Part shown: in pieces, positions 19,551 through 58,537 of the stretch | Numbering within the stretch: position 1 is the first letter of the stretch | Layout: the number at the start of each line of letters is the position of its first letter | From: Chloroflexota bacterium | GTDB lineage: Bacteria; Chloroflexota; Limnocylindria; Limnocylindrales; CSP1-4 | Length of the DNA: 64,000 bases | Assembly: GCA_015478725.1 (NCBI GenBank) | Contig: JADMIG010000011.1 | Coordinates: 1-64,000 of the forward strand | Direction: 5' to 3' | The notes under the pieces: generated by a model | Database searches by the model: none | The model's input: the letters and a program-made list of their open reading frames with translations, nothing else | What the model was told of the DNA's origin: nothing | Translations under genes and position numbers: made by a program

Positions 19551-19729
19551 GGTCGATTCCAGTCGTTCCCGGCGCATTCGAGGCCGGATGGGGCCGTGTT
19601 CCGTCGCCACGCGTCTCGGGTTCGGCGTCAGCGAGCGCGGACGATGGTGCGATGCCTCCGTGGCGCTGGGCCCTCCATCCAGCTCGGTCGCCGGTCCCCG
19701 AAGCATAGGCTCGAACCAAGCCCGCTGGA

Positions 19730-19745
19730 TGTGACCCGCGTCACG
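19730..19745. promoter_or_regulatory. CRP/FNR-like box TGTGACCCGCGTCACG
   Basis: Near-perfect dyad TGTGA-N6-TCACG between the minus-strand small protein/MFS genes (start 19550) and the plus-strand DsrE-like gene (start about 19828). One of seven similar boxes found between 19.7 and 30.5 kb; a CRP-family regulator is encoded at 32833-33558. Confidence 0.6.
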
Positions 19746-19827
19746 CTTCGTCCCGGATGTGTGCCTCGCCCTCGGGGCGGTCCGATCTCGGTCCTGTCGC
19801 CGAACCGGATCCGGCACGGCCAGCCGT

Positions 19828-20212
19828 GTGTCGTGCGTCACGGCGGCCATCCCGGCAGCACCGGTAGTCTTGGCTCCAGATGCGGCTACCCACGAGATGG
19901 AGGGCGAGCAGCGTGCTCTACACGAAGGAGCTGGTGGCCGCCGGGGCAACCGTCCGTCTCGTCTTCGACGGTGCCGGCACCGGTTGGCTGGCCCGCTGGG
20001 GGCGCAGTGATGGCCCGGCGTCCCGCGCCGCGGAGCTCTTCGCGGAGCTCAAGGCGGCCGGCCTCGCCTACGAGGTCTGCGACTACTGCGCCGGTGCGTT
20101 CGACGTCCGCGAGGAGCTGTCCGACGCCGGTGAGGCGCTGACCGGCTCGTACATGGACCATCCGAGCGTCGCCGGGCACGTGGCGGACGGGTTCCAGGTG
20201 TGGATCCTGTGA
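19828..20212 (+). pseudogene. DsrE-like protein, apparently frameshifted near 19913
   Basis: The C-terminal part (from about 19913) reads LYTKELVAAGATVRLVFDGAGT, then CDYCAGAF and MDHPSVAGHVADGFQVWIL, the pattern of a DsrE/DsrF-like family with an FDGAGT motif and a C-x2-C-AGAF cysteine pair. The first 30 residues expected for the family are missing in that frame, but the adjacent frame upstream (GTG 19828) reads VVLAPDAATHEMEGEQRAL, which fits the family N-terminus. One base appears lost at about 19910-19915. If the shift is real, a start at the GTG at 19913 behind GGAGG would give only a truncated protein. Confidence 0.6.
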
Positions 20213-20317
20213 CGGTCGCGAAAACGGGCGCCCGATCGCGATAGGTCTCCCGACGAGTCTCCCCAGGACCTCTGGCGGGTTGCCCGGTGATGCAGCCGCG
20301 GCGACGATCGTCGGAAC

Positions 20318-21523
20318 TTGGCCGGACCACGCTCCACGAGACGAACACCCTTGACCATCCGTCCACTCGTCCTCGGCGGTCGACCGTCGCTCTCTGCTCC
20401 GAACGTCGTCGCGAGCGCCCTCGAATCGGCGCGCGCCCCCCTCGTGGTCGGCGCGATCGGCGCCGGACTCGTCCTGCTCGCCGGGCTGCCGGCGCTCGTG
20501 CTCTCGACGTCGGCTGACCGGGTCACGGTCGGCGGGCTGAGCCTCCTCGGCACGGCCGCGGTGGGCGCCACGCTGTCCATCCGGCCGCGCGATCGGGTCG
20601 TGAGTTCGATCGCGACGGTGCTGGCCATCGCCTCGATCACGGCTCTGGCGCGGGCCGTCTTCGCCGAGGTTCCCACGATCGTCTGGCTGTTCGCGTTCGT
20701 CGTCCCGGCCGTCGGCCTCGTCCGCGGCCCGGCGCAGGGGGCCCTCGCCGGGTTGCTTGCCGAGCCAGCTCTGCGCTGGATCGAGACCGGTACCGCGGTC
20801 GGCCCCCTCGATGCGCAGGCGCCGTTCGGGTTCCTCATCCTCGTCGCCCTCGGATCCGTGCCCGCCTATCTGTTGGCGGTGGCGCACAGCCGGCGTGAGG
20901 CGCTCGATGCTCAGCTCGCGCGAGCCAACGAACTCCTGAGCATCGCCGTCGTGGCCCGCGAAGCTCTGAAGGAGGCCCAGGATCAGGCGATCTTCATGCT
21001 CGCCCGGGCGGCCGAGGCGCGGGACGGCACGACCGGCCAGCACATCCAGTCGGTGCGTGCTCTCGCCGGCGAGCTTGCGCTCGCGCGCGGGATTGGCGCC
21101 GCCGCCGCTGAGGAGATCGCCTGGTCGGCGATGCTCCACGACCTCGGCAAGCTGCGGGTGCCCGATCGGGTGCTCCTCAAGCCGGGCAGCCTGACCGAGG
21201 AGGAGTGGGCGATCATCCGTCAGCATCCCGCCTGGGGCGAGGAGCTGCTGGCGGGCACGGCGGGCTTCGCGGTCGCCCGGCTCATCGCCCGCTCCCACCA
21301 CGAGAACTGGGATGGTACGGGCTACCCGGACCGCCTCGTCGGCGAGGCCATCCCCCACGCGGCGCGGATCGTCCGGATCGTCGATGTCTACGACGCGCTT
21401 CGGAGCGACCGCCCGTACAAGCCCGCCTGGTCGCCGGAGCGGGCGCTCGACGAGATCCAGGCGATGCGCGGTCGCGGCCTCGACCCGGAGTTGACGGATC
21501 TGTTCCTCGGGCTGGCACATTGA
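20318..21523 (+). CDS. Membrane-anchored HD-GYP domain phosphodiesterase
   Basis: A c-di-GMP phosphodiesterase candidate of about 400 aa. The N-terminal half has about five TM helices (residues 40-195). A short coiled region then leads to the HD-GYP domain with MLHDLGKLRVPDRVLLK, HHENWDGTGYPDRL and RIVDVYDALRSDRPYKPAW, so the catalytic His/Asp and the GYP motif are intact. The start is uncertain: TTG at 20318 or TTG at 20351; neither has a strong Shine-Dalgarno site. No receiver domain, so the signal probably enters through the membrane part. Confidence 0.85.
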   Translation: MAGPRSTRRTPLTIRPLVLGGRPSLSAPNVVASALESARAPLVVGAIGAGLVLLAGLPALVLSTSADRVTVGGLSLLGTAAVGATLSIRPRDRVVSSIATVLAIASITALARAVFAEVPTIVWLFAFVVPAVGLVRGPAQGALAGLLAEPALRWIETGTAVGPLDAQAPFGFLILVALGSVPAYLLAVAHSRREALDAQLARANELLSIAVVAREALKEAQDQAIFMLARAAEARDGTTGQHIQSVRALAGELALARGIGAAAAEEIAWSAMLHDLGKLRVPDRVLLKPGSLTEEEWAIIRQHPAWGEELLAGTAGFAVARLIARSHHENWDGTGYPDRLVGEAIPHAARIVRIVDVYDALRSDRPYKPAWSPERALDEIQAMRGRGLDPELTDLFLGLAH

Positions 21524-21573
21524 CTCCCCGCGGATGAGGGGGGTCGGCTCGGGTGACGCGTGGCCGCGCGGAC

Positions 21574-21589
21574 TGTGGGCCACATCACG
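21574..21589. promoter_or_regulatory. CRP/FNR-like box TGTGGGCCACATCACG
   Basis: Dyad TGTGG-N6-TCACG located 58 nt upstream of the redoxin ATG at 21647, a usual distance for an activator site. Same consensus as the other boxes of the island. Confidence 0.5.
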
Positions 21590-21646
21590 GCGGCGGTGAG
21601 GATCCACCCACGATGATCGTGGCTCAACACTCGCACGGAGCCCGTC

Positions 21647-22252
21647 ATGCGCAGCGATATCCGGCCCCGAGCCACATTCCCCGACTTCGAGCTCCCGGAC
21701 CAGTCCGGCCGGCGTCGGCAGTTGTCCGAGATCCAGGGGATCGATCCGATGATCGTGGTCCTCTCCCGGGGACGCTACTGTCCGAAGGACCGGCGCCAGC
21801 TGCGTAACCTCGTCGAGCTCGCCCCCGAGTTCAAGGTGGCGTACACGAAGATCGTGACGATCTCCACGGACAACCTGCTCGAGACCAACGAGTTCCGCGA
21901 CGGCCTCGGGGCGACCTGGCCGTTCCTCTCGGACCCCGGACGAATCGTCCAGAAGGATCTCGACGTCGCCGAGTACACGGATCCCACCCACGATCCGATG
22001 GTCCCTCACACGTTCGTGCTGGGCCCCTGCCTCGTCATCCACTCCATCTACAACGGCTACTGGTACTGGGGGCGCCCGTCCAACGAGGACCTCCGCCGCG
22101 ACCTTCGCGACGTCACGCGCCGAGCCCGCTCCGACTGGGACCTCGGGGCTCCCGGCCCTCGGGAGAAGTGGGAGGCCGGAGAGCGGGCGGAGTTCTGGCC
22201 CTACGGCCGGTCCCTCCGCGAGGTCCTCGCCGCGGAACGGGAGATCGCGTGA
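21647..22252 (+). CDS. Redoxin/peroxiredoxin-like thioredoxin-fold protein
   Basis: A 201-aa AhpC/TSA-type thiol oxidoreductase. The early FPDFELPDQSGRRRQLS matches the family, and the probable peroxidatic Cys is in SRGRYCPKDRRQLRNL near residue 45. A second Cys (LGPCLVIH) near residue 126 could resolve it. The C-terminal 40 residues are an acidic/aromatic extension. Followed 100 nt later by a glutaredoxin gene, a likely electron donor. Confidence 0.85.
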   Translation: MRSDIRPRATFPDFELPDQSGRRRQLSEIQGIDPMIVVLSRGRYCPKDRRQLRNLVELAPEFKVAYTKIVTISTDNLLETNEFRDGLGATWPFLSDPGRIVQKDLDVAEYTDPTHDPMVPHTFVLGPCLVIHSIYNGYWYWGRPSNEDLRRDLRDVTRRARSDWDLGAPGPREKWEAGERAEFWPYGRSLREVLAAEREIA

Positions 22253-22352
22253 CCCGCGCGCTTCGATCCCGGGACACCGAGGGCTCGTCGGTCTCGCGAC
22301 GCCTCCTCGCGGCCGTCTCTTCGCGCTCGACCGCCGAGCTCCGGGGAGACCA

Positions 22353-22664
22353 GTGAATCTCTTCCGGCTCCTGCGTCGCGTCGTCGTGGCACAGCCGGCG
22401 CCGGCGCCCGTTCCGATCGACGTTCCCCCGGAGCTGACGGTGTACGGGGCGGACTGGTGTGGGGATTGTCGTCGGGCGAAGCACCACCTCGACACGGCCG
22501 GCGTCCCGTACCGCTGGGTCGACCTTCGGTCGGATCTCGCGGCGAAACGGATGCTCGCGGCGGCAGGCCTCCGGGCGATCCCGGTCATCGCCACGCCGGA
22601 CGGGCGCGTCCTGGTGGAGCCGTCGAACGCGGATCTCGGTCGACTTGTCGCGTCGCTCGCCTGA
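22353..22664 (+). CDS. Glutaredoxin/mycoredoxin-like protein (CGDC)
   Basis: A 103-aa thioredoxin-fold protein with active site WCGDC near residue 37, the cis-Pro segment AIPVIATPDG and a C-terminal SNADLGRLV helix. The first 22 residues are a short basic/hydrophobic leader. Start GTG behind GGGGAG. The CGDC sequence resembles actinobacterial mycoredoxins and NrdH-like proteins. Probably reduces the neighbouring redoxin or mixed disulfides. Confidence 0.88.
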   Translation: MNLFRLLRRVVVAQPAPAPVPIDVPPELTVYGADWCGDCRRAKHHLDTAGVPYRWVDLRSDLAAKRMLAAAGLRAIPVIATPDGRVLVEPSNADLGRLVASLA

Positions 22665-22872
22665 GGTCGCGCCACCCGGGTCAGTCGTCAGCCCGTGATG
22701 GCCGGCGAACCGGGAACCACCGATCTGGTCCGAGCCGCGGACCGCTCGCTCACCGGCTGTTGGAAGACGCAGTCGAGTGGGGCGACAGCGTCGTCGCGCC
22801 GACGTTTCCCTTCGTCGTGGGCCCTACCAACGATGCGGTAGCACTCCCGCAGATGTCGAGCTCGAGGTTCTG

Positions 22873-23289
22873 TCACGGTGTTGCGAGCACTCCCTCCGGC
22901 GGGTCGAATCGCGCCGGGTGGTCGAGATAGTCGATCCACAGCTCCGGGCGTCGGAGCCCCACCGCAAGGCCTCGTCGGAACGAGAAGCGGCCCCATCGCA
23001 GCACGACTCCGGCGTCACCGATGAGGCCGAGCAGCCGCCGCTTTGCGAAGAGCCGGATGCCGTCGATCGGTGCAAGCTCGACGAACTCGGTATCCGGTTC
23101 CGTGGCCCTCCACCCCACGGTCAAGTCGCCGACCCAGGTGCCGCAGCACCAGGAGCGGAACGAATCGATGACGAGAATCCGGCCGGCCGCCAGTCCGCGG
23201 AGGGACGACCGCAGCGCGGCATCCACCTCGACCGAGATCGTGGACGGGACGACCGGGTGGCCGCCCGGGGTTGCCGCGATGTTCTCCAC
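22873..23289 (-). CDS. Conserved hypothetical protein with CC motif
   Basis: A 138-aa protein without TM segments. It has a central FRSWCCGTWVGDLTVGWR block (adjacent cysteines) and a C-terminal PELWIDYLDHPARF segment. I recall similar uncharacterised proteins in Actinobacteria and Chloroflexota but no function. Start is a GTG preceded by GGAAGAGG. A CRP-like box lies about 119 nt upstream. The adjacent cysteines and the redox neighbourhood suggest metal or thiol chemistry (inference only). Confidence 0.6.
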   Translation of the reverse strand: MENIAATPGGHPVVPSTISVEVDAALRSSLRGLAAGRILVIDSFRSWCCGTWVGDLTVGWRATEPDTEFVELAPIDGIRLFAKRRLLGLIGDAGVVLRWGRFSFRRGLAVGLRRPELWIDYLDHPARFDPPEGVLATP

Positions 23290-23407
23290 TGCTGACCTCT
23301 TCCTGGGTACGCTCGAGATCGTGGTCAGGCCTCCGCCCTCCGTCGTCCCGGAGCAGGCGGCGACGCGACCATGCGCCCGGAACGTAGGGCGGGGTGGCGC
23401 GCCCGTC

Positions 23408-23423
23408 TGTGGCGTGGATCACG
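23408..23423. promoter_or_regulatory. CRP/FNR-like box TGTGGCGTGGATCACG
   Basis: TGTGG-N6-TCACG dyad in the 240-nt gap upstream of the minus-strand CC-motif protein (start 23289). Part of the recurring set of boxes in this island. Confidence 0.45.
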
Positions 23424-23475
23424 CTCAGCGCGGTTCCAAGGTTAAACCCGGATCGCCGTGTTGCCCCGGGCATGC

Positions 23476-23506
23476 ATCGACCCCCGGCCGCCGACCGGGG
23501 GTCGAT
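23476..23506. terminator. Perfect 12-bp GC-rich stem-loop, probable terminator
   Basis: Arms ATCGACCCCCGG and CCGGGGGTCGAT with a 7-nt loop. It begins 24 nt downstream of the stop of the minus-strand membrane protein gene (23530). There is no T-tract, so it may act as an intrinsic terminator of the U-less kind, or as an mRNA 3'-end stabiliser. Confidence 0.55.
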
Positions 23507-23529
23507 TGCGAGAAGGCCCCTGGGGTGGG

Positions 23530-24048
23530 TTAGTTGTTGGCGCGGAAGACGAACCGGTCGAGGACGAGGCCGAGCACGCTTCCGTACATGAACGTGTGGG
23601 CCACGAACTGGACGGCCACATTCTGGCTATCCGGGAACCACGTCCAGCCGAAGACTCCGGCGAGGACGAAGAAGTTCATGATCCAGAGGCCGAAGCCGGC
23701 CAGGCTCGCGACGACGAGGACCGCGGCGGTCGACCGAGAGAACGACGGCACGAGCGCGAGCACGCCCGCCACGACGACGCCGTACATCATCGACAGCGCC
23801 ATGTGAACCACGAGTCCGGCACCGCCGGACGTGAGGAGCGAACTCGTCGGATCGAGCGCTGTCTTGCCGAGCGCGATCGCCCCGATCATCCGCAGCGGCA
23901 TGAAGAACGCAGCGCTGCCATTGAGCACGACGGCCATGATCATCTCGAACATCGCAAAGACGATCCCGCCGACGATCCCGCCGACGATCCCGTAGCGGAT
24001 CCAGGTCCCCGTGGCGATGCGTCGGTCGGTGAACGTTGCGGTCGACAT
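23530..24048 (-). CDS. Four-TM membrane protein of unknown function
   Basis: A 172-aa hydrophobic protein. A short N-terminus (MSTATFTDRRIATGTW) precedes a glycine-rich first helix (GIVGGIVGGIVFAMFEM), and three or four more helices follow, ending FVFRANN. No catalytic motif recognised. The start at 24048 is set by AAGGAG 9 nt upstream. A CRP-like box overlaps the end of the upstream methyltransferase gene, 63 nt from the ATG, so it probably has its own promoter. Confidence 0.7.
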   Translation of the reverse strand: MSTATFTDRRIATGTWIRYGIVGGIVGGIVFAMFEMIMAVVLNGSAAFFMPLRMIGAIALGKTALDPTSSLLTSGGAGLVVHMALSMMYGVVVAGVLALVPSFSRSTAAVLVVASLAGFGLWIMNFFVLAGVFGWTWFPDSQNVAVQFVAHTFMYGSVLGLVLDRFVFRANN

Positions 24049-24110
24049 GTGCGGACTCCTTATCCAATCGTTGATAGGACCCGACCGTAGTCGCACCCGT
24101 CGCGATGTTC

Positions 24111-24126
24111 TGTAGCCTCCCTCACA
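24111..24126. promoter_or_regulatory. CRP/FNR-like box TGTAGCCTCCCTCACA
   Basis: On the minus strand it reads TGTGA-GGGAGG-CTACA, centred about 70 nt upstream of the ATG of the four-TM protein (24048). It overlaps the last codons of the methyltransferase gene by 5 nt. Confidence 0.45.
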
Positions 24127-24973
24127 AAGCCTGCAGGACACCGCCTGGGCAAGGCGCCGCGTAGGCCAGCCCGCCGCCGGGTGTGGGCTGCTGGTACGCG
24201 ATGAGGAACCGCCAGCGGCTCATTCGACCAGCCTCGATGGACCTCTGGACCAGAGCCTCTTCGGCGAGGATGAGGAGCATCGCCAGACGGCCTCGGGACG
24301 TCGCCGTCCGCTCGCGAAGCAGGGTCCGCGCCGCGTCGGCGCGTCGGCGACTGCTCTCGTCAAGAGCCGCCGTGACGTCGTCGAACCGCTCGACTCGGAC
24401 GTCGGCCGCGTGGAGCGAGCGGCCCAGCCGATCGCCGGCATTCGGACCGGTGACGAGGAGTGCAGCGAAGAGTCGACCGTTGGGACCCAGTGCTTCCCCG
24501 ATGCCCCGGACCGACGCTGCGAGGTCCGGCGCGAACATCAGGGAGTCGATCGCGTAGGCGCTCGTGGCGCCGAGGAGCGGTGGGCAGGCAAGATCGCCGG
24601 CGTAGAACCGGACCGCGGCACTGACGCCAGCACGCCGGGCTCGCCTCGTCGCCGCGGCGACGGCCCGCCGGGAAACGTCGACGCCGACGATCTGTGCTCC
24701 TGAGCGGCGATGCATCTCGAGCGCCAGGCTGCCGATCCCGCAGCCGAGGTCGAGCAGCCGATCGCCCGGCGCGGGATCGAGGTCCGTCAGCAGGAAGTCG
24801 CGGTCCTCCGTGGTGAGATAGCCGTGGGCAGCCACGCCCCCGGCCGCCGTGAGCGTCAGGAAGCGACGTCCCGCGACTGATCCGACGAGGAGCGCGTAGG
24901 AGATGTCGAAGTAGATCCGGGCGATGACCCCGGCCGCGACTCGACCAAGCCCCCGCCGCTGCCGCCACGTCAC
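24122..24973 (-). CDS. SAM-dependent class I methyltransferase
   Basis: A 283-aa methyltransferase. Motif I is LLDLGCGIGS near residue 75, followed by VGVDVSRRAVAAA, and the acceptor-side loop MFAPDL. An N-terminal segment RIYFDISYALLVGSVAG resembles methyltransferases acting on small hydrophobic substrates. The GTG start overlaps the stop of the small membrane protein gene (GTGA). It ends an operon with DsbA- and CcdA-like genes. Substrate unknown. Confidence 0.8.
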   Translation of the reverse strand: MTWRQRRGLGRVAAGVIARIYFDISYALLVGSVAGRRFLTLTAAGGVAAHGYLTTEDRDFLLTDLDPAPGDRLLDLGCGIGSLALEMHRRSGAQIVGVDVSRRAVAAATRRARRAGVSAAVRFYAGDLACPPLLGATSAYAIDSLMFAPDLAASVRGIGEALGPNGRLFAALLVTGPNAGDRLGRSLHAADVRVERFDDVTAALDESSRRRADAARTLLRERTATSRGRLAMLLILAEEALVQRSIEAGRMSRWRFLIAYQQPTPGGGLAYAAPCPGGVLQAL

Positions 24974-25152
24974 GCGCGGGGCCTTCGGGCCGGGCGGAGC
25001 CAGGCAAAGGCGATGGCGGCGCCCACGACGATGACGACGGCGATCTCCGCCGGTTTGTCGAGCGCCCCGCCAGCGGATCGGACCGCGACGAGGCCAGCGC
25101 CGGTCACGATCGCTCCGCCCACGATGACTTCGGCCCGTGGACGGATGGTCAT
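24970..25152 (-). CDS. Small two-helix membrane protein (60 aa)
   Basis: Sixty residues with two hydrophobic stretches (VIVGGAIVTGAGLVAV and IAVVIVVGAAIAFAW) separated by a short polar hinge, and an Arg-rich tail. It overlaps the CcdA gene upstream (ATGA) and the methyltransferase downstream (GTGA), so the overlaps themselves argue that it is translated. Function unknown. Confidence 0.65.
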   Translation of the reverse strand: MTIRPRAEVIVGGAIVTGAGLVAVRSAGGALDKPAEIAVVIVVGAAIAFAWLRPARRPRA

Positions 25153-26012
25153 TCGCCGGGCTCCGGAACGCGGCGCTTCCGCCGAGTGAGCGAGCGGCCG
25201 GCGATCGCCACCAGCGCGACCATGGGCAGGCCAACGATCGCGACGAGGAGCAACGGGGTCCGCACGGCGAGGTCGCGCACCCCACTCTCGATGGAGAGGG
25301 CGAGATCCGCGGCGCCGAGGGCTGCATAGAGGCCACCCAGGGCGTTCGAGCCCTGGAACACGATGAAGGCCGCGCCGAGCCCGATGAACAGCAGGCTCGA
25401 GATGACGACGGAGCTGTGGCGGCGGATCGGACCGAGCTGCAGCTCCCGGCCGCGCAGGCGGCCGCGACCGGAGGCCCCGAGTCGGTCCCAGGCGAGGGCG
25501 AGGGCGAACAGCGGGGCGGCCATCCCTGCCGCGAAGATCGCGAGGAGGACCGCGCCCTCGATCGCGCCCCCGGAGGCGCCCGCGATCGTCAGTACCCCGC
25601 CGAGCAGCGGCCCCGAGCAGAACCCGCCGATCCCGTACACGAGACCGAGCACGTACGTGGCGGCAAGGGACTCGCCGCTCGCGGCGAACCCTCGTCCGGA
25701 GAGGCGTCCGGCGCCCGGCACCTCGAACCCGCCGACCGCCAGCTGGAAGGCACCGATCGCGATGAGCAGGAGGCCGGCCACGATCGAGACCTCTGTCCGG
25801 TGCTCGAGGAACAGGCTGCCGAGAGCCCCGACGCCGAGGCCGAGCGGGACGAAGAGGGTGAGGAGTCCGACGTAGAAGACAGCGGTCCGCAGGAGCAGCT
25901 GGCCGCGCGACGGGAATGCATAGGCGAAGAAGGCCGGCAGGAGCAGTGCCGAACACGGGCTGAGCAAGGACAGCACGCCGCCGGCGAACGCGACGACCGT
26001 CTCGATTCCCAT
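25149..26012 (-). CDS. CcdA/DsbD-type thiol-disulfide transmembrane transporter
   Basis: A 287-aa membrane protein that carries reducing equivalents across the membrane. The two key cysteines are in LSPCSALLLP (about residue 20) and GIGGFCSGPLLGG (about residue 132), in the symmetric positions expected for CcdA. Seven or so TM helices. Directly downstream of a DsbA-like gene (15-nt gap), its likely extracytoplasmic partner. Some cytochrome c maturation roles are known for the family, but no cytochrome genes are near. Confidence 0.88.
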   Translation of the reverse strand: MGIETVVAFAGGVLSLLSPCSALLLPAFFAYAFPSRGQLLLRTAVFYVGLLTLFVPLGLGVGALGSLFLEHRTEVSIVAGLLLIAIGAFQLAVGGFEVPGAGRLSGRGFAASGESLAATYVLGLVYGIGGFCSGPLLGGVLTIAGASGGAIEGAVLLAIFAAGMAAPLFALALAWDRLGASGRGRLRGRELQLGPIRRHSSVVISSLLFIGLGAAFIVFQGSNALGGLYAALGAADLALSIESGVRDLAVRTPLLLVAIVGLPMVALVAIAGRSLTRRKRRVPEPGE

Positions 26013-26027
26013 CGCTGCGTCTCGCGG

Positions 26028-26810
26028 CTACTTCGACGCGAGGGCGGCATCGATCGCCGCCTGGAAGACCTCGAATGGCTGGGCGCCGACGATCCGCTGC
26101 GTGCCGATGAGGAACGTGGGAGTGCCGTTGAAGCCCTTCGAGGTGACGTCGGCGAGATCCGCCTGGACCGCGCCGGCGTGGGTACCCGCGTCGACGCAGG
26201 CGTCGAACTTGGAGACGTCGAGTCCGAGGCTGGCGCCGAATCCCTTGAGGCGGTCCTTCGAGAACGCCCCCGTGTTCTCGCCGCCCTGGTTCTCATAAAG
26301 GAGGTCGTGATACTCCCAGAACCTGCCCTGATCGCCCGCGCAGCGCGCGGCATTCGCCGCGTCCCGCGACTCAGGGCCGATCCAGGCGAAGTCGTGCCAC
26401 TCGAGGCGGACCGTGCCGGTGTCGATGTAGGCGGTCTTGATCTGCACCTCGACCGAACGAGCGAATGCCCCGCATGACGGACACTGGAAGTCGCCGTATT
26501 CGCGGATCAGGACGGGCGCGGCGGCCTGGCCGAGAACCGGGTGCGGGTCCGCGACGCTGCCTGTGGGCGTGCCCGCCGCGCCGATGTAGAGGATGCCGAC
26601 GACCGTGGCGGCCGCGACCGCGAGGAGCCCTGGCAGCGCCCAGCGCCGGAGACTGCGCGGCGAGCGCCGCGCTGGCATCGCGCTGCGGACCGTCGACCGC
26701 CCGGATCGGTCCGTCGCCCGTAGGCTCGTCCGGACACCAGCGCGCTCGGTGGAACCCAGGGGCGTGGTTGTACCTTCGCGCGGATCTGCGCTTCGGCGAC
26801 GCTTGCCCAA
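26028..26810 (-). CDS. DsbA-like membrane-anchored thioredoxin-fold protein
   Basis: An exported disulfide oxidoreductase. One TM anchor (ALPGLLAVAAATVVGILYIG), then YGDFQCPSCGAF with the CPSC active site at about residues 110-113, a helical insertion, and the cis-Pro loop NGTPTFLIG. It belongs to the Thioredoxin_4 (DsbA/DsbG-like) group. The start is uncertain: TTG at 26810 has GGAGG 5 nt upstream; the ATG at 26678 gives a compact signal anchor but no ribosome site. Forms an operon with CcdA. Confidence 0.85.
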   Translation of the reverse strand: MGKRRRSADPREGTTTPLGSTERAGVRTSLRATDRSGRSTVRSAMPARRSPRSLRRWALPGLLAVAAATVVGILYIGAAGTPTGSVADPHPVLGQAAAPVLIREYGDFQCPSCGAFARSVEVQIKTAYIDTGTVRLEWHDFAWIGPESRDAANAARCAGDQGRFWEYHDLLYENQGGENTGAFSKDRLKGFGASLGLDVSKFDACVDAGTHAGAVQADLADVTSKGFNGTPTFLIGTQRIVGAQPFEVFQAAIDAALASK

Positions 26811-26888
26811 TCGATCCTCCGTCCGGTCCACGTCAAGCGGCCGCGCCGCGCACCCCGGGGGATGGTAGGCGGGTCACTGTGTCGCGGC

Positions 26889-26929
26889 TGTGACGGACAT
26901 CACGAACCGGGGACGTGACGCACCACACA
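26889..26929. promoter_or_regulatory. Two CRP/FNR-like boxes in the dsbA / SRPBCC divergent region
   Basis: Box one at 26889-26904 is TGTGACGGACATCACG; box two at 26914-26929 is CGTGACGCACCACACA, 25 nt apart. They lie between the DsbA-like gene (minus, start about 26810) and the SRPBCC gene (plus, start 26965) and could control both. Confidence 0.6.
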
Positions 26930-26964
26930 GCGATCCTGCCGGGGATAGATCAACATTCGCGCCG

Positions 26965-27486
26965 ATGAACGATCGCACTACCATCGACGACGTTGGGCCG
27001 ATCGTCGCCGAGGTCAGCGCGCCCGCCGCCCTCGTGTTCCAAATGATTGGCGCGATCGGCCAGGGTCCCCAGCGTCCTGGCGACCGCGCCGACGTTCTTG
27101 CGCGCGATGGCGATTCGCTCATCTGCGATTTCCGGACGACCGTCCGCCTCCCACTCGGCCGGAGACGATCCGTGCGAACGCGTGAGGCCGTGCGGCTCGT
27201 GCCACCGGACCGCGTCGAGTACGAGCACCTCGACGGTCCGGTCCGCGGTCTTCGCGAGTCGATCACGGTCGAATCGATCGAAGACCATCGCAGCCGGCTC
27301 GTCTACCGGGGCACGTACGGTTCGCGGGGTCGCCTCGCCCGGGCGGTCTTCCGGCTCCTGTCCAAGGGCACGATCGAGCGCGCGATGGATGAGCACTTCA
27401 CCGACCTTCGGCAGCGGGCCGAAGCTCGGGCGGTGCGCAGCCGAGCGTTCGCGGTCGAGCCAGCCGTCGAACCCGTCGACGACTAG
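26965..27486 (+). CDS. SRPBCC (START-like) family protein
   Basis: A 173-aa protein with a polyketide-cyclase/START-like fold pattern: VSAPAALVFQMIGAIGQ at the N-terminus, alternating beta strands (DSLICDFRTTVRLP, RVEYEHLDGPVRGLRES) and a long C-terminal helix (GTIERAMDEHFTDLRQRAEA). Binds an unknown hydrophobic ligand. Start at the ATG 26965 is chosen because an upstream GTG would lie within the CRP-like box. Its stop overlaps the end of the convergent methyltransferase gene by 4 nt. Confidence 0.75.
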   Translation: MNDRTTIDDVGPIVAEVSAPAALVFQMIGAIGQGPQRPGDRADVLARDGDSLICDFRTTVRLPLGRRRSVRTREAVRLVPPDRVEYEHLDGPVRGLRESITVESIEDHRSRLVYRGTYGSRGRLARAVFRLLSKGTIERAMDEHFTDLRQRAEARAVRSRAFAVEPAVEPVDD

Positions 27487-28346
27487 GGGTCGGCCTGGGC
27501 AACCGCCGCGAAGTACCGCAGATCCCCCCGCCGCACCGCGGCGCGGACCTCGTCTGCGAGGCGCTGCGCCTGCGCCGGTCCGATCCATGCTGAGCCAGCG
27601 GACCCGGCGAGCGCCCCGAGATCCAGTCCCAGGTCGCGCGCCGCGACCGCCGCCAACCTGATGCGGGCTTCGATCCGATCGACGAGGGCGCAGATCGACG
27701 CCGTCCGATCCCACCGTCGCTCGATCCTCAGGCCGGCAGCACCGAGCTGCCGGCCGAGCTCGCCGGCGCGCCAGGCATCGGTGACGCACAGCGCCGCGCC
27801 GAGGATCCGGTGGTCGGTCAGCGCCGGGATCGGGTCGTCGCCGACCTCGACATCGCTCAGGATGAGCCGGCCACCCGGGCGGAGCACTCGGCGCATCTCG
27901 ATCAGCGCGTCCGTCCGGGGCAGCGTCGAGAGGACGCACTCGGCGAGGATCCCGTCGAAGGTGGCCGATTCGTACGGCAGGTTCAGCAGATCGGCCCGGC
28001 GCCAGCGCACCCGACCGATTGGCTCGCGTGATTCGGCGTGCGCGATCACCTCGGCGCTGGCGTCCACGGCGTCGACCTGGAGACCGAACTCGCCGGCTGC
28101 GAGGCGCGAGCTTGCCCCCGGACCGCAACCGGCGTCGAGCAGCCGCGTTCCCGGCTTGAGCTCTGACGCCGCGAGCAGCTGGCGCGTGCTCTCGAGCCCA
28201 CCGGGGTGGAACGACTCTCCGATGAGGAGCTCGGCGAGCGGATTCCCGTAGACCGTCGAGCAGCAGGCGATGACGCTGGCTGGCTCACGCCGGAGTTCGA
28301 CCCTCGGGCTGACCGGCCCCGGGTCGCCCGAACGCTCGGCCGTCAT
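27483..28346 (-). CDS. SAM-dependent class I methyltransferase
   Basis: A 287-aa methyltransferase with motif I LLDAGCGPGAS, motif II-like VDAVDAS and the post-motif LAECVLSTLPRTDALIEMRRVLRPGGRL. The N-terminal block YGNPLAELLIGESFHPGGLESTRQL resembles methyltransferases found next to Cys-rich radical SAM genes in anaerobes. The start overlaps the radical SAM stop as TGATG, so the two proteins are translationally coupled and probably work on the same product. Confidence 0.85.
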   Translation of the reverse strand: MTAERSGDPGPVSPRVELRREPASVIACCSTVYGNPLAELLIGESFHPGGLESTRQLLAASELKPGTRLLDAGCGPGASSRLAAGEFGLQVDAVDASAEVIAHAESREPIGRVRWRRADLLNLPYESATFDGILAECVLSTLPRTDALIEMRRVLRPGGRLILSDVEVGDDPIPALTDHRILGAALCVTDAWRAGELGRQLGAAGLRIERRWDRTASICALVDRIEARIRLAAVAARDLGLDLGALAGSAGSAWIGPAQAQRLADEVRAAVRRGDLRYFAAVAQADP

Positions 28347-29782
28347 CAACGCGGCTCCAGGACCGCAACGGCGCGGCCACCACGTCGTCGGGCGGCGAGG
28401 CGCTGGCGGGTCTCCTCGCGGTAGCCGACCGTGTTGTACGTGCAGAAGGGGATCATCCGTCCGTCATCCTGGAGGACCCCGATGCAGCACTTCATCGCCT
28501 TCTTGACGTCGAACGTCCAAGGATCGAGAAAATCCCGCATTTGGACCATGAAGACCCGCCGGGCGAGGTCGGTGAGCGCCGGCAGATCGAGATCGCACGC
28601 AGCGCAGACGAACCGTTCGCTCGTCGAATCGCCCGGCACGGACCCGGCCGACCAGAGCCCCTCCAGGGCGTGCAGGATGTTCCGGTCGATGTTCGGCAGC
28701 GTCCGGTTCGTGATGTAGTCGAGGTACTGGTCAACCTCGAGGACGCGCGGCAGCGGGATCACCTCGCCGTCGTCGCCGAGGTAGGCGTAGGTGACCGAAC
28801 TGCAGGTCGGGAAGCAGCACGGGATCGGGACAAAGTCGCTCGCCCGAAACGTCTCGCCGCCGGTCTCGAGAGCGCGGAGCACGTCCGGGATCGTCATTCG
28901 CCGCAGCGGGTCGTGGTCGGGGTGGCGCCCCGTGTGGGTCACGGGCTGGAACATCACGCCACGGACCGCCGGGTGCTTGAGGCCGAACTCGACGATCGGC
29001 CCGACCTCGTGCTCGTTCACGTCCCGCTCGATGGCCGCGACGAGGATGACGTGCAGGTCGGCTTCGGCCAGGCGATCGAGGGCCCGGAGCTTCGTCTCGA
29101 GGAGCGGCTCGCCCCGGATCGTCCGGTACGTCTCGTCGGTGAGGCCATCGAACTGGAGGTAGATGAGCGGCCGGAGCGCGGCGAAGCGGGCGAACCACTG
29201 CGGATCATTCGCGACGCGGAGGCCGTTCGTATTGACCATCACGTGACGGATGTCGCGGTGCTGGGCCGCCGTGATCATCTGGAGGAGGTCCGGGTGGATC
29301 GTCGGCTCGCCGCCGGAGAACTGGACCACCTCGGGGTGGCCCTCGAGCTCGACGAACCGGTCGAGCATCGCCTCGACCTCGGCAACCGTCAGGTTGAAGC
29401 CGGCCCCGGCGTTCGCGAAGCAGACCGGGCAGTCGAGATTGCACGCCGTGTTTACCTCGATGAGGGCGAGGCACGTGTGCTGGCGGTGCTCCGGGCAGAT
29501 CCCACAGTCGAGCGGGCAGCCGCGGGCCACCTCGGTCGTGACCCGCAGCGGTGCCTGGCCGGGTTTGTTGAACCGAGCGTTCTCGACATAGGCGCGGGAG
29601 TCGGCGTAGATGAGTCCCTCGAACCAGCCGTGCGTGTCGCAGCGCTTCCGCATGAAGACCTCGCCGTCGCGGAGGAGGACCTGGGCGTCGATGACGGTCC
29701 GGCACTCCGGACAGATCGAGCGAGTCACCTCGTGGAGGATCTCGCCCGCTGGGCGCGGCTGCGGGGGGAGCGTCGGGAGCAT
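28346..29782 (-). CDS. Radical SAM protein resembling the Tes (tetraether synthase, MJ0619-like) family
   Basis: A 478-aa enzyme very rich in cysteine. An N-terminal zinc-ribbon-like part (ICPEC near 24-27, RCDTHGWF near 48) is followed by RGCPLDCGICPEHRQHTC (about 88-104), the radical SAM cluster CNLDCPVC (114-121), the SAM-binding FSGGEPT, and C-terminal cysteines (IPCCFPTCSS, CAACDLD, KCCIGVLQ, FCTYN). This layout is that of Tes-type radical SAM proteins that join lipid chain ends in archaea and occur in some bacteria; the assignment is by pattern only. Start ATG 29782 has GGAGG 4 nt upstream. Confidence 0.85.
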   Translation of the reverse strand: MLPTLPPQPRPAGEILHEVTRSICPECRTVIDAQVLLRDGEVFMRKRCDTHGWFEGLIYADSRAYVENARFNKPGQAPLRVTTEVARGCPLDCGICPEHRQHTCLALIEVNTACNLDCPVCFANAGAGFNLTVAEVEAMLDRFVELEGHPEVVQFSGGEPTIHPDLLQMITAAQHRDIRHVMVNTNGLRVANDPQWFARFAALRPLIYLQFDGLTDETYRTIRGEPLLETKLRALDRLAEADLHVILVAAIERDVNEHEVGPIVEFGLKHPAVRGVMFQPVTHTGRHPDHDPLRRMTIPDVLRALETGGETFRASDFVPIPCCFPTCSSVTYAYLGDDGEVIPLPRVLEVDQYLDYITNRTLPNIDRNILHALEGLWSAGSVPGDSTSERFVCAACDLDLPALTDLARRVFMVQMRDFLDPWTFDVKKAMKCCIGVLQDDGRMIPFCTYNTVGYREETRQRLAARRRGGRAVAVLEPR

Positions 29783-29844
29783 GTGGCCTCCAGGGGAGCG
29801 GTCGGTGGACACGTCGGCTCGGTCGATGCCGGTCCCGCCTTCGG

Positions 29845-30450
29845 TCAGCGAGCGGCCGGAGCGGCCGGCAGCCGCTCACCAGCCTCGATCCGGATCGGCA
29901 GACGGTTCTCGCCGGGGGTCAGGGGGCAGGAATAGGTATCGGCGTAGACGCAGTACGGGTGATACGCAAGGTTGAGATCGAGCGCGTACGTCCCGTCGTC
30001 CTCCGCCTCGAGATCGAGGTAGCGTCCGGCGCCGTAGGTCTCGACGCCGCTCGTGCCATCGAGGAATGGCACGAAGAGCGACTCGGCGCGTCCCCCGTCC
30101 ATGACATACGCTGTCAGCGAGCGCGGTGCTCCGCCCACGGGGAAGGTGAACGAGCCCGCTCGATGCGCCGGTCGAAGCTGGCCGTCCGAGGTAGGGATCT
30201 CGAAGGCCGAGGGTGCTTCCCCGTGATATGGCTCGAGCTCCAATCCTTCGAATCGGAGCGTGGGATCGATCGGGAAGTACGGCAGTCCCGAGAAGGCGGG
30301 GCGCTGGGAGGCCGGGATCGGGCTTGACGGTGACGCCTTGAAGAACGCGTCCTTGGCGGCCCGATGGCGCTCGATCTCCGCCGCGTACCCGTGTTGGTGG
30401 TCGTCCGCCACTGGCTGATCTCCCTGGCCTGTCCCGTTCGCCGCGATCAT
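29845..30450 (-). CDS. DUF1684 family protein
   Basis: A 201-aa cytoplasmic protein with the DUF1684 signature: HRAAKDAFFKASPSSPI, FSGLPYFPIDP, LFVPFLDGTSGVETYGAGRYLD, DLNLAYHPYCVYADTYSCPLTPGENRLP and IEAGER. The biochemical role of the family is not established. It is first of three minus-strand genes (DUF1684, radical SAM, methyltransferase) transcribed from the region holding the box at 30497. Confidence 0.85.
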   Translation of the reverse strand: MIAANGTGQGDQPVADDHQHGYAAEIERHRAAKDAFFKASPSSPIPASQRPAFSGLPYFPIDPTLRFEGLELEPYHGEAPSAFEIPTSDGQLRPAHRAGSFTFPVGGAPRSLTAYVMDGGRAESLFVPFLDGTSGVETYGAGRYLDLEAEDDGTYALDLNLAYHPYCVYADTYSCPLTPGENRLPIRIEAGERLPAAPAAR

Positions 30451-30496
30451 GGGGCTTCGGCGGTCCCGGGGCCGTAACCGAGCCCACACTCTCCAA

Positions 30497-30512
30497 CGTG
30501 ACGCGCGCCACA
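30497..30512. promoter_or_regulatory. CRP/FNR-like box CGTGACGCGCGCCACA
   Basis: CGTGA-N6-CCACA dyad between the DUF1684 gene (minus, start 30450) and the flavin disulfide reductase (plus, start 30632). One mismatch per half compared with TGTGA-N6-TCACA. Confidence 0.5.
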
Positions 30513-30631
30513 GCGGGCGAGGCGGCGATCCGCATAGCCTCGGTGAGCCGCGACTCTCGTGGCGCGGGGTCGGTCGGCGATCGGGCAGGCGACGGCCCAG
30601 CACGACGCCCGCACCAGGAGAACATCCGCCG

Positions 30632-32005
30632 ATGGAAGAGCAGTTCGACTTCGTGATCATCGGCGCCGGGTCGGCTGGTGAGGCTGCGACCTACATGGCA
30701 CGTGGCCGCGGTGCTTCGGTCGCGATCGTCGATCGAGAGCTCTTCGGCGGATCGTGCCCGTTTTGGGCCTGCATGCCGTCCAAGACGCTCCTCCACGCGG
30801 CCGCGGTCCACGCGGGTGGCGGCGGCTACGACTGGCCGCAGGCCTCCGCCCGACGCGACTACATGATCAACCGTGAGGGGACTGATGTTCCGAGCGACGC
30901 GGGTCACGTGCATGGGCTCGAAGATGCCGGCGCGGTCGTCGTTCGCGGGACCGCCCGGATCGTCGGACCGGGTGCGGTCGCGGTCTCTGGGGACGGGGAC
31001 GAGCGGATGCTGCACGCACGGAACATCGTGGTTGCGGGCGGCACGTTCCCGACGATCCCGAGTATCGAAGGACTCGACCGGATCATCTTCTGGACGAACC
31101 GCGAGGCCACCACCACCCGCGTCCTCCCGGCAAGCCTTGTCGTCCTCGGCGCCGGACCGACCGGCGTCGAGCTGGCACAGGTTTTCGCCAGATATGGCGT
31201 CCCCACCGCCCTCGTCGCGTCGCAGTCGAGGGTCAATCCCAAGGATCATCCGCGGAACTCGAGCGCCCTGGAGGCCGGCCTTCGACGAGACGGGGTCGAT
31301 GTGCGGACCGGTGTGCAGGCGCTGCGCGTGCGGGGACGCGCGGGGGCATCCGGAGCCGACGTGGTGGACCTGTCCGACGGCACGACGGTCGAAGGTCACC
31401 GGATCCTGCTCGCGGTAGGCCGAACCGTGCCCGTCGCCGGACTCGGGCTCGAGACCGTGGGGGTGAAGCTGTCAGATGGCCGTCCGGTCGTCGGTCCGGA
31501 CCTGAGGATCGCCGACCACGTCTACGCCGTCGGGGACCTGGCAGGACCGGAGATGCACACGCACCTCGCGCACTACCAGGGCGAGCTCGCCGTCCGCATC
31601 GCGCTCGGCGACGACGTTCGGCCCGACTACTCGGCGATCCCTCGCGTCGTCTACACGGACCCTGAGGCCGCCGGCGTCGGGCTCACCCTCGAGCAGGCGA
31701 TCGCGGCCGGATACGATGCCTTCGAGGAAGTGGCCGACCTTGCGACGAGCGCGAAGGGCTACGTCGTCGAGGCGACCGGGCACGTCACGATCATCGTCGA
31801 TCGACGGACGCGGACGTTGCGCGGGGCGTTCATCGCCGGACCGGCGGCATCGGAGGTCATCCACGAGGCGGTTCTCGCCATCAGGATCCAGGCGACCATC
31901 GACGTCCTCGCCGACACGATCCACGCCTTCCCGACGACGGCTCGGGTCATGGGCGGGCTCTTCTCACAGGCCATTCGCACGCTCGACGCCACGAAGCGGC
32001 GCTGA
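30632..32005 (+). CDS. Dihydrolipoamide dehydrogenase-like FAD pyridine nucleotide-disulfide oxidoreductase
   Basis: A 457-aa flavoprotein. FAD site IIGAGSAGEAA, redox disulfide GGSCPFWACMPSK (Cys42 and Cys47), NAD(P) site VLGAGPTGVELAQ, second FAD motif YAVGDLAGPEMHTH and the dimerisation domain. It differs from true Lpd by the bulky CPFWAC spacer and lacks the usual HPT...E active-site pair (HAFPTTAR takes its place). It is not MerA: no C-terminal Cys pair. Probably reduces a low-molecular-weight disulfide or a thioredoxin-like partner. Confidence 0.85.
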   Translation: MEEQFDFVIIGAGSAGEAATYMARGRGASVAIVDRELFGGSCPFWACMPSKTLLHAAAVHAGGGGYDWPQASARRDYMINREGTDVPSDAGHVHGLEDAGAVVVRGTARIVGPGAVAVSGDGDERMLHARNIVVAGGTFPTIPSIEGLDRIIFWTNREATTTRVLPASLVVLGAGPTGVELAQVFARYGVPTALVASQSRVNPKDHPRNSSALEAGLRRDGVDVRTGVQALRVRGRAGASGADVVDLSDGTTVEGHRILLAVGRTVPVAGLGLETVGVKLSDGRPVVGPDLRIADHVYAVGDLAGPEMHTHLAHYQGELAVRIALGDDVRPDYSAIPRVVYTDPEAAGVGLTLEQAIAAGYDAFEEVADLATSAKGYVVEATGHVTIIVDRRTRTLRGAFIAGPAASEVIHEAVLAIRIQATIDVLADTIHAFPTTARVMGGLFSQAIRTLDATKRR

Positions 32006-32056: not shown

Positions 32057-32836
32057 GTGACCGATCCTGGCGCATTCGTTCCCGTGATCCCGGCCTCGGC
32101 GGTCCCGAGCGTGACCGCGACCGTGATGACCGAGGTCGACAGGCTCGCTATCGAGATGTACGGCATCACCCTGCTCCAGATGATGGAGCAGGCCGGCTCC
32201 CACCTCGCGGAGGTCGTTCGACTTGAGCTCGGTGGCGACCTCCGTTCACGAAACGTCGTCGTGGCGGTCGGGCCCGGCAACAACGGCGGCGGCGGGCTGG
32301 TGGCAGCCCGACACCTTGTCAACCGCGGCGCGAGCGTGCGGGTCGTCCTGGCGCGGCCCACGCTGCGTATGACCGAGGCGGCCCGGCACCAGCTGGCGAC
32401 GCTCATCGCGATGGGGACGAGCTGCTGCGTGGCCACGTACGACCTTGGTGACGAGGAGCTCGACGTGGTGCTCGCGAATGCCGACGTCGTCGTCGACGCG
32501 ATCCTGGGCTACAAGATCCACGGCGCGCCGCGCGGGGAGGTCGAACGGCTCATCGGCTTCGTCATCCGCTCGGGCCGCCCGGTGGTCAGCCTCGACCTGC
32601 CCTCGGGCATCGATCCGGACACTGGCGACGCGTCCGGCATCGCGATCTCCGGCGCGGCGACCCTCACTCTCGCGCTGCCCAAGCCGGGCCTCATTCGCGG
32701 GGTTGGCGCCACTCGCAGTGGCCGGCTCTACCTTGGAGACCTCGGGCTACCAGCGGCCCTCTATGCTGGCCTGCACATCGACGTCGGCCCATTGTTCGCC
32801 GCCGGCCGTATCGTCCACCTGGATCGGATCGCGTGA
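32057..32836 (+). CDS. nnrE: NAD(P)H-hydrate epimerase (YjeF N-terminal domain)
   Basis: A 259-aa YjeF_N protein that repairs hydrated NAD(P)H. Visible: TEVDRLAIEMYGITLLQMMEQAG, the GPGNNGGGGLVAARHL nucleotide loop, DAILGYKIHGAPRGEVERLI and LDLPSGIDPDTG. The kinase/dehydratase domain often fused to it is absent. Start GTG. Its stop overlaps the CRP-family regulator start (GTGA), an unusual pairing that may tie cofactor repair to the redox regulon. Confidence 0.88.
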   Translation: MTDPGAFVPVIPASAVPSVTATVMTEVDRLAIEMYGITLLQMMEQAGSHLAEVVRLELGGDLRSRNVVVAVGPGNNGGGGLVAARHLVNRGASVRVVLARPTLRMTEAARHQLATLIAMGTSCCVATYDLGDEELDVVLANADVVVDAILGYKIHGAPRGEVERLIGFVIRSGRPVVSLDLPSGIDPDTGDASGIAISGAATLTLALPKPGLIRGVGATRSGRLYLGDLGLPAALYAGLHIDVGPLFAAGRIVHLDRIA

Positions 32837-33558
32837 CCAGACTCACCCAGGCGCGTTCGTTGACCGAGAAGCTCGGCCTCCTCAGCGAGGTCGCCCTCTT
32901 CGCCGGGCTGTCGGAAGCCGACATCGAGGCGATCGGCCATGCCACGACGATGACCCACTGCGTCCGTGGCCAGCAGATCCTCTCGCCCGACGACGCGCCG
33001 GACCGGATCCACATCATCAAGAAGGGCCAGGTGCGGGTCTTCCGCGTCACGCCCGACGGCAAGCAGCTGACCCTCGACATCTACGAGAAGGGAACGATCC
33101 TCGGCGACATGGGCCTCCTCGGGCAGGACCGGCTTCCCGAGGCGTATGCCGAGGCGATCGGCGACGGGGTGATCTGCACGATCACCCCGGAAGAGCTGCG
33201 CCGGCTCATCGAGCGCCACCCGGTCGTTGGCATCAATATCATCCGGCACCTCTCTCGGCGGCTCCAGGCCGCCGAGCGGGAGCTCGAGGCGATGGCGTAC
33301 CAGCGGGTCGATCAGCGGCTCGCCCGGAAGCTGCTCGATCTCGGCCAACGCTTCGGCGTCTCGACGCTTCGAGGCACGCTGATCGAAGCACGGCTCACGC
33401 AGCAGGAGCTCGCCGAGATGATCGGCACGACCCGCGAGACGCTCGCCCACACGCTCGCCGATTTCCGGCGGCGGGGCTTGCTCGACACGGCCCACCACGA
33501 GGTCGTCATCCGCGACGCCGAGCGCCTCGCGGAGATCGCCGACGGGGACCTTCTCTAG
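32833..33558 (+). CDS. CRP/FNR-family transcriptional regulator
   Basis: A 241-aa regulator: cyclic-nucleotide-type sensor barrel (residues 20-140), long dimerisation helix (IRHLSRRLQAAERELEAMAYQRV) and a winged HTH with recognition helix TTRETLAHTLADFRRRGLL. The Arg-Glu pair of that helix matches CRP-type readers of TGTGA half-sites, and the nearby boxes have that half-site. No N-terminal Cys cluster, so it is not an Fe-S FNR. Phosphate-cassette residues for cAMP (RxSS) are not evident, so the ligand is unknown. Confidence 0.9.
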   Translation: MTRLTQARSLTEKLGLLSEVALFAGLSEADIEAIGHATTMTHCVRGQQILSPDDAPDRIHIIKKGQVRVFRVTPDGKQLTLDIYEKGTILGDMGLLGQDRLPEAYAEAIGDGVICTITPEELRRLIERHPVVGINIIRHLSRRLQAAERELEAMAYQRVDQRLARKLLDLGQRFGVSTLRGTLIEARLTQQELAEMIGTTRETLAHTLADFRRRGLLDTAHHEVVIRDAERLAEIADGDLL

Positions 33559-33634
33559 GCGCTCCGGCTCGTCCTTCTCGGAGAGCGTGATCCTCCCTAC
33601 ATCCTGCGAGGCCGAACGTCGCTACGGTCGCGCC

Positions 33635-33910
33635 ATGGACATCCTCCGCCTCATCACCAGATCCATTTCCACCACCGCATGCGAACATGTCCCCGCCGAG
33701 ACCGCGGCACCCCAGGCTGACCGCTGTCAGGAATGCGGCAGTTCGTTCAGCCTCCGACTGTGCGCAACCTGCGGCCACGTCGGTTGCTGCGAATCCCAGG
33801 CCGGCCACGCCCGCTCCCACGCCTTGAGCGCTGATCATCCGGTCATCTACCAGGTGCCGGCGGGCTCCGGCTTCATCTGGTGCTACCCGGATCGAAGGTA
33901 CGTCGGCTGA
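33635..33910 (+). CDS. UBP-type zinc finger protein
   Basis: A 91-aa protein made almost wholly of one ZnF-UBP domain: CEHV, CQECG, LCATCGHVGCCE, GHARSHALSADHPVIYQV and a WCYPD end. Bacterial single-domain versions are known but uncharacterised; in eukaryotes the domain binds ubiquitin C-termini. Lies between the CRP-type regulator and the mercury operon. The start at 33635 is the only ATG close to the domain. Confidence 0.85.
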   Translation: MDILRLITRSISTTACEHVPAETAAPQADRCQECGSSFSLRLCATCGHVGCCESQAGHARSHALSADHPVIYQVPAGSGFIWCYPDRRYVG

Positions 33911-33931: not shown

Positions 33932-33966
33932 ATACCGTTGCGTGGTATACGAATACGGTATATCGT
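33932..33966 (+). promoter_or_regulatory. Candidate mer promoter/operator
   Basis: AT-rich island in GC-rich DNA. ATACC-N7-GGTAT inverted repeat (33932-33948) overlaps a -35-like TTGCGT (33938-33943); a -10-like TATCGT (33961-33966) follows at 17 nt. More ATAC/GTAT elements run to 33962. It precedes the HMA-merA-arsR operon by 36 nt and is a plausible binding site for the ArsR-type repressor. Confidence 0.5.
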
Positions 33967-34001
33967 GTGGATAGACGTATCGACACCCTGGAGTTCCCGA
34001 C

Positions 34002-58458: not shown

Positions 58459-58537
58459 CTCACATACCACGGGCTTTCTGCCATCGGCTGGCACCCGTCT
58501 CTCTGGGAAGCCGGCCGAGGCTCAATATGGTGCATCC

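Follow-up and report, generated by a model that had tools for sequence, protein, structure and literature searches.

Cmr (Rv1675c) of Mycobacterium tuberculosis illustrates that a two-cysteine CRP-family protein encoded near thiol genes can act as a redox switch, its DNA binding being impaired by nitrosation and by disulfide formation at Cys36/Cys131 (PMC5499769). In Haloferax volcanii, a DUF1684 protein with a Cx7C motif (HVO_1043) belongs to the OxsR regulon, under a thiol-based regulator (PMC9426492). FLP of Lactobacillus casei and further FNR-like proteins, cited in PMC5039431, give another precedent for two-cysteine CRP/FNR members; the likeness is in cysteine number, and the lineage is a different one. 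Here we analyzed 64,000 nucleotides of a Chloroflexota genome (contig JADMIG010000011.1; G000:C11:1-64000; genome of 3.45 Mb in 151 contigs), hereafter the window, in which a 17-kb island of mainly thiol and redox genes carries CRP-type boxes of the form YGTGA-N6-YCACR. From the sequence evidence presented below, we consider it probable that this island forms the core of a regulon under the CRP-family protein encoded at 32833-33558, with class II activation of thiol-disulfide genes and of the regulator's own operon. In an incomplete literature search we found no description of a Chloroflexi CRP regulon or of a CRP-epimerase pair, and the control circuit is apparently undescribed, a possibility that the original prediction for this DNA had raised.

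That prediction listed seven boxes, and all of them were present (19730, 21574, 23408, 24111, 26889, 26914 and 30497). Five matched YGTGAN6YCACR exactly in at least one orientation, and 24111 and 26914 carried one mismatch. For comparison, 177 genomes of the class were searched for 32833 orthologs, and genes were called in about a dozen CRP-linked loci; the relatives were Chloroflexi/Chloroflexota metagenome-assembled genomes, and the gene caller and weight matrix were our own scripts. We counted all palindromic four-base dyads with spacings of 0-18 (4,864 dyads) in the promoter gaps of CRP-linked loci, including the window island. The best two of the 4,864 were TGTG-N8-CACA and GTGA-N6-TCAC, found 8 times each versus 0.3-0.5 expected; they occurred 0 and 1 times in a similar length of control promoters from the same genome, and 8 and 6 times in the relatives alone. 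A weight matrix seeded with the top dyad and trained on relatives only placed all seven sites at the top of the window, along with 58449 and three sites that the original list had overlooked (19827, 30473 and 33586). Own-genome comparisons were based on sampled stretches and pattern searches. Scores of at least 10 were obtained at 10 of 2,949 intergenic positions of the island, at none of 6,859 intergenic positions in the window outside it, at none of 14,411 island coding positions and at none of 33,060 sampled intergenic positions of the genome; the motif was equally common neither inside genes nor in random promoters. TGTGRN6YCACR occurred at 20 places in 3.45 Mb, 6 of which were in the window and 5 in the island (Poisson P 4e-7 and 2e-8, respectively). 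Sites outside the island whose context was checked were mostly coding, or intergenic without adjoining regulon genes. The deciding evidence is the position and exact form of the boxes. Separately, the strong box-like word at 58449-58464 was rejected as a site; it straddles a stop codon, has no -10 element in either direction and is probably non-functional. A perfect TGTGAGCTGAGTCACA upstream of a PaaA-like gene (phenylacetyl-CoA oxygenase; L121 1522-1537, G000:C62) is possibly the site of a different CRP.

The 32833 protein combines a cyclic nucleotide (cNMP)-binding-like domain with a Crp-type helix-turn-helix, placing it in the CRP/FNR superfamily, and its predicted fold is CRP-like (AlphaFold 2 predicted local distance difference test score 85.9; best PDB matches GlxR and MtbCRP). 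It resembles Escherichia coli CRP and MtbCRP/GlxR in fold, recognition-helix Arg-Glu, TGTGA-N6-TCACA-type operator and class II spacing, but it lacks the conserved cAMP Arg-Ser, has His, Thr or Lys at the Arg185 position across its homologs, and would govern a small, local rather than global regulon. In the orthologs, no cAMP phosphate-binding Arg-Ser/Thr pair was found, the columns being Pro/Ala/Gln-Glu/Gly, whereas other CRPs of these genomes have Arg-Ser. The FNR part of the original label had to be dropped: the four cysteines of the FNR [4Fe-4S] cluster are absent, with only Cys43 and Cys115 present, and the sites are of the TGTGA rather than the TTGAT type. Cmr likewise belongs to the CRP/FNR superfamily, has two cysteines and acts near thiol-redox genes, and cAMP does not modulate it directly, but its site resembles TGTCAGCGTGCTGACA, it represses components of the DosR regulon (PMC5499769), and its cysteine spacing differs (Cys36/Cys131 versus 43/115, compared by residue number). 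The OxsR regulon is a functional analogue that places a Cx7C DUF1684 protein, a disulfide reductase, thioredoxin and glutaredoxin under one thiol-based regulator; OxsR, however, is an archaeal TrmB-family regulator, unrelated in protein and operator (PMC9426492).

Thiol-redox sensing by 32833 is plausible because of the gene content, the nearly invariant Cys115 and a thioredoxin-like fusion in one homolog. Cys115 was conserved in 20/20 orthologs and 20/21 distant homologs, and Cys43 in 19/20 orthologs. Selenocysteine was considered and rejected: the TGA flagged in two homologs of family f5 ends the reading frame rather than interrupting it. The operon partner encoded at 32057 scored above the TIGR00197 cut-off for NAD(P)H-hydrate epimerase, yet the Asp of its NNGGDG motif is gone in every readable CRP-linked copy, with GGGG or similar instead; the genome's second YjeF_N copy (C1) and all four solved (PDB) relatives retain it. 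We infer a sensing role for this protein. It is possible, though less likely than not, that 32833 controls the boxes and responds to a small molecule, be it a nucleotide, NAD(P)HX or some other metabolite, instead of thiol oxidation, as the CRP fold with its intact cNMP-type domain and the epimerase-like partner would allow; the lost cAMP phosphate-binding pair, the near invariance of Cys115 and the thioredoxin-like partner or fusion in many distant loci argue against such a ligand.

Promoter geometry was consistent with activation. In relatives, TANNNT lay 20-22 bp downstream of the box in 23 of 33 occurrences within 60 bp, 13 of them at 21 bp (P about 2e-20), and none of the box-like words in coding sequence of the window's own genome had TANNNT at 20-22 bp. 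The window contained nine box/-10 pairs, seven with strict TANNNT. With the box near -41.5 and the -10 about 21 bp after it, the sequences have the layout of class II CRP-dependent promoters; this geometry follows from the -10 sitting 20-22 bp downstream of the box. Seventeen sites in CRP-linked loci were 41.5-43.5 bp from the start codon, implying leaderless mRNAs. Since TANNNT peaked 12-14 bp before start codons across the genome's genes (sample L090-L121 plus the window), leaderless transcription is probably general in this genome, and many genes of the lineage are probably leaderless. Very short distances from box to start codon (e.g., 16-30 bp in a few relatives) would suit a repressor; such a role for 32833 is unlikely, given that the dominant placement, with the box centre at -41.5 and a -10 element 21-22 bp on, is that of a class II activator and no -35 boxes are evident. 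The original assignment of boxes to genes was only partly right: 19730 points left to a major facilitator superfamily (MFS) gene, the DsrE-like gene is served by 19827 instead, and 23408, 24111 and 26889 also face leftward.

Orthologs of 32833 were found at 75-87% identity in 14 other genomes of the family, and elsewhere in the class one at 80% and four at 54-57%. One genome (G024:C105; L065 9989-10710) also holds a second copy, broken by an in-frame TGA and probably a duplicate in decay. A box precedes the flavin disulfide reductase–epimerase-like–CRP operon in the window and the CRP-containing operon in most relatives, so 32833 is probably autoregulated. CACA-ended box plus TANNNT promoters occurred in 11/20 genomes with the CRP versus 10/157 without it (P 3.6e-7). 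The radical SAM gene at 28346 had an ortholog in seven family genomes, six of which carried the CRP (P 1.8e-5); where genomes lacked a CRP ortholog, its homologs (about 60% identical) had no box and a different neighbourhood. In L128-L131, which lack a CRP ortholog, the radical SAM homolog adjoins genes resembling prolipoprotein diacylglyceryl transferase, and a boxed gene of L141 is itself an Lgt family member (PF01790). The original prediction had also named 45473 for binding tests, and no 45473 homolog was found in the box-bearing loci of relatives. That another CRP-family protein (45473 or one of the copies at C1:198193, C36 and C3) reads the boxes, with 32833 as a passenger, is quite improbable: there are five CRP-like matches in the genome, and many CRP proteins share TGTGA-type sites, but the boxes track 32833 orthologs, are absent by radical SAM homologs where the CRP is missing, and precede the orthologs' own operons. 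On this evidence the regulator is best identified as 32833 rather than 45473.

Boxed loci were also fetched solely by the box and -10 pattern, with no CRP linkage on the fetched stretch. These held glutaredoxin and DUF3179 genes, with TlpA-like and epimerase-like genes on the same contig (G012); thioredoxin, CcdA and MFS genes (G120); a member of the 23530 family (G100); DsrE (G046); and a thioredoxin reductase (G169; TIGR01292 391 bits, above the 343 cut-off). The unlinked DsrE homolog of L139 had its box together with a -10, and redoxin orthologs were boxed upstream in L085-L087 and L144. The recurrence of glutaredoxin, thioredoxin, CcdA, DUF3179 and DsrE families at unlinked loci bears out a regulon over mainly thiol/redox genes; five other pattern hits (L137, L138, L142, L143 and L145) contained no regulon genes and look like chance. 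Because they stand in the same position before the same genes in many relatives, the boxes are best read as a real control circuit. Chance matches in GC-rich promoter DNA are hardly credible: the one-mismatch pattern was only mildly (1.5-fold) enriched over the whole window (50 matches versus 32.9 ± 6.7 in shuffles) and is by itself weak evidence, but the cross-species matrix contradicts a chance origin, and the -10 spacing and unlinked loci refute it.

Several points weigh against the proposed regulon. The dyad served as the seed of the matrix, and the loci were picked for having the CRP. Cys43 is not kept beyond the class (4/21 distant homologs). The -10 elements that follow 21574 and 26914 are loose (GATGAT and AACATT), and 30473 has no clear one. 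The CRP orthologs of G059 and G106 had no boxes nearby, on contigs that are short or transposon-rich. Some boxed genes, namely 23530, the methyltransferases, the MFS gene and the UBP finger, are not obviously redox-related. Finally, the boxes, -10 spacing, conservation, operon structure and regulator linkage are read from sequence, and it is from them that we infer binding of the boxes by 32833 and activation through that binding.

In the proposed circuit, a 32833 dimer would bind YGTGA-N6-YCACR boxes centred near -41.5 beside a TANNNT -10 and would activate RNA polymerase as class II activators do, with some of the resulting mRNAs leaderless. It would turn on the redoxin, DsbA-CcdA, flavin disulfide reductase, DUF1684, DsrE-like, TrsS-like radical SAM and UBP-type zinc-finger genes, and its own operon as positive feedback. 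The glutaredoxin gene at 22353, about 100 bp downstream of the redoxin gene, presumably lies in the same transcript. More speculatively, the signal may be thiol/disulfide or electrophile stress, received via Cys115 (with Cys43 in this class) or via a partner protein that would be epimerase-like here and thioredoxin-like elsewhere in the phylum.

More distant Chloroflexota homologs of 32833 were 33-41% identical. Their neighbours, judged by eye, included a small thioredoxin-fold protein at about 11 of 20 loci, DUF3179 at 7, a DUF1440-like membrane protein at 7 and a TrsS-like radical SAM enzyme with a methyltransferase at 2, as well as DsrE, glutaredoxin or CcdA homologs; in G239 a thioredoxin-like domain is fused to the CRP homolog. 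At these loci GTAA-N6-TTAC ranked first among de novo dyads (7 versus 0.13), and YGTAA-N6-TTACR-type sites had TANNNT at 21-22 bp, with 9 intergenic in 34 kb versus 2 coding in 151 kb. Shared partners and -10 spacing with a variant box point to the same circuit, altered by one base at box position 4. In E. coli CRP, Arg185 contacts this position. At the corresponding place the window's family has His, f5 has Thr and the distant homologs mostly have Lys, suggesting that box position 4 covaries with this residue; between f1 and f5 the position-4 shift was not significant (P=0.12). We tentatively propose a phylum-wide CRP subfamily that would sense the cell's thiol or pyridine-nucleotide status via a dedicated partner, thioredoxin-like (adjacent or fused) in many Chloroflexota and a degenerate epimerase paralog, sensor rather than enzyme, in the window's class, with the operator varying between GTAA and GTGA along with the Arg185-position residue.

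An uncultured lineage of a widespread phylum thereby gains a testable regulon for which promoter geometry, operator and candidate regulator are all specified. One thiol-redox programme would tie together the poorly understood DUF3179, DUF1684, small membrane proteins, bacterial UBP-type zinc fingers and TrsS-like radical SAM enzymes, and the question arises whether a CRP-family switch can take its input from an epimerase-like or thioredoxin-like partner. The features of the island are listed in Table 1.

Table 1. Predicted boxes and genes of the island (score, relatives-trained weight matrix).
Feature	Position	Strand	Remarks
Box CGTGACGCGGGTCACA	19730..19745	-	score 17.1; -10 TATGCT 19702-19707 at 22 bp; toward frameshifted MFS gene
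Box TGTGTCGTGCGTCACG	19827..19842	+	score 14.4; -10 TAGTCT 19865-19870 at 22 bp; upstream of DsrE-like gene
DsrE-like, CDYC motif	19880..20212	+	PF02635 21.7 bits, just under 22.7 cut-off; N-terminus uncertain
Box TGTGGGCCACATCACG	21574..21589	+	score 17.3; looser -10 GATGAT 21612-21617; before redoxin
Redoxin (AhpC/TSA family)	21647..22252	+	PF00578 59 bits
Glutaredoxin, mycoredoxin-like	22353..22664	+	PF00462; TIGR02200 62.7 bits, under 89.5 cut-off
Small protein with Cys-Cys pair, function unassigned	22873..23289	-	no Pfam match
Box CGTGATCCACGCCACA	23408..23423	-	score 14.8; -10 TACGTT 23381-23386 at 21 bp; before 22873-23289
Membrane protein, function unassigned	23530..24048	-	no Pfam match; homologs in 8 CRP-linked loci; boxed homolog in L136
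Box TGTGAGGGAGGCTACA	24111..24126	-	score 13.8; -10 TACGGT 24084-24089 at 21 bp; before 23530-24048
SAM-dependent methyltransferase	24122..24973	-	PF13649; homologs in 7 CRP-linked loci
CcdA/DsbD-type membrane thiol reductase	25149..26012	-	PF02683 40.9 bits
DsbA-like exported thioredoxin, CPSC	26028..26678	-	PF13462; NF041057 143.7 bits, under 190 cut-off
Box CGTGATGTCCGTCACA	26889..26904	-	score 15.5; -10 TACCAT 26862-26867 at 21 bp; before DsbA-CcdA-methyltransferase
Box CGTGACGCACCACACA	26914..26929	+	score 17.4; looser -10 AACATT 26952-26957; 43.5 bp to ATG, leaderless geometry; before SRPBCC-like gene
SRPBCC-like protein (named by eye)	26965..27486	+	no Pfam match; homologs in 7 CRP-linked loci
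Methyltransferase related to DVU_1556 family	27483..28346	-	NF045667 128.7 bits, under 155 cut-off
Radical SAM enzyme, TrsS/Tes group	28346..29782	-	NF045646 363 bits (cut-off 490); NF045702 329 bits (cut-off 450)
DUF1684 protein, Cx7C (CVYADTYSC)	29845..30450	-	PF07920 139.9 bits
Second box of divergent gap	30473..30488	-	score 15.2; 24 bp from 30497; no clear -10
Box CGTGACGCGCGCCACA	30497..30512	+	score 15.0; -10 TAGCCT 30535-30540 at 22 bp; before CRP-containing operon
Flavin disulfide reductase, CxxxxC active-site pair	30632..32005	+	PF07992 152 bits; related to, below cut-off for, lipoamide dehydrogenase and MerA models
NAD(P)H-hydrate-epimerase-like, NNGGDG Asp missing	32057..32836	+	PF03853 140.8 bits
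CRP-family regulator, Cys43 and Cys115, proposed box binder	32833..33558	+	PF00027 63 bits, PF13545 65 bits, both above cut-off
Box CGTGATCCTCCCTACA	33586..33601	+	score 12.9; -10 TACGGT 33623-33628 at 21 bp; centre 41.5 bp from ATG 33635, leaderless geometry; before UBP zinc-finger gene
UBP-type zinc-finger protein	33635..33910	+	PF02148 57 bits; most homologs in relatives boxed

The radical SAM protein encoded at 28346 is related to TrsS and Tes, yet it is a member of neither, scoring below both NCBIfam equivalog cut-offs. Between 19859 and 19913, the N-terminus of the DsrE-like protein reads better in two different frames; a single-base indel is possible, as is a short leaderless start at 19880. 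The MFS gene (18045-19362, - strand) is split across two frames near 18.71 kb, and an intact 395-aa homolog (81% identical) was found in L135; the split may be a genuine lesion or may stem from misassembly. Beyond the UBP finger, 34002-36053 holds a separate cluster of an HMA protein, a mercuric reductase (TIGR02053 504 bits, cut-off 454) and an ArsR-type regulator; near 33945-33970 this cluster has an AT-rich stretch resembling a palindrome. The HMA-MerA pair of the relative L052 is accompanied by a weak CRP box and a -10.

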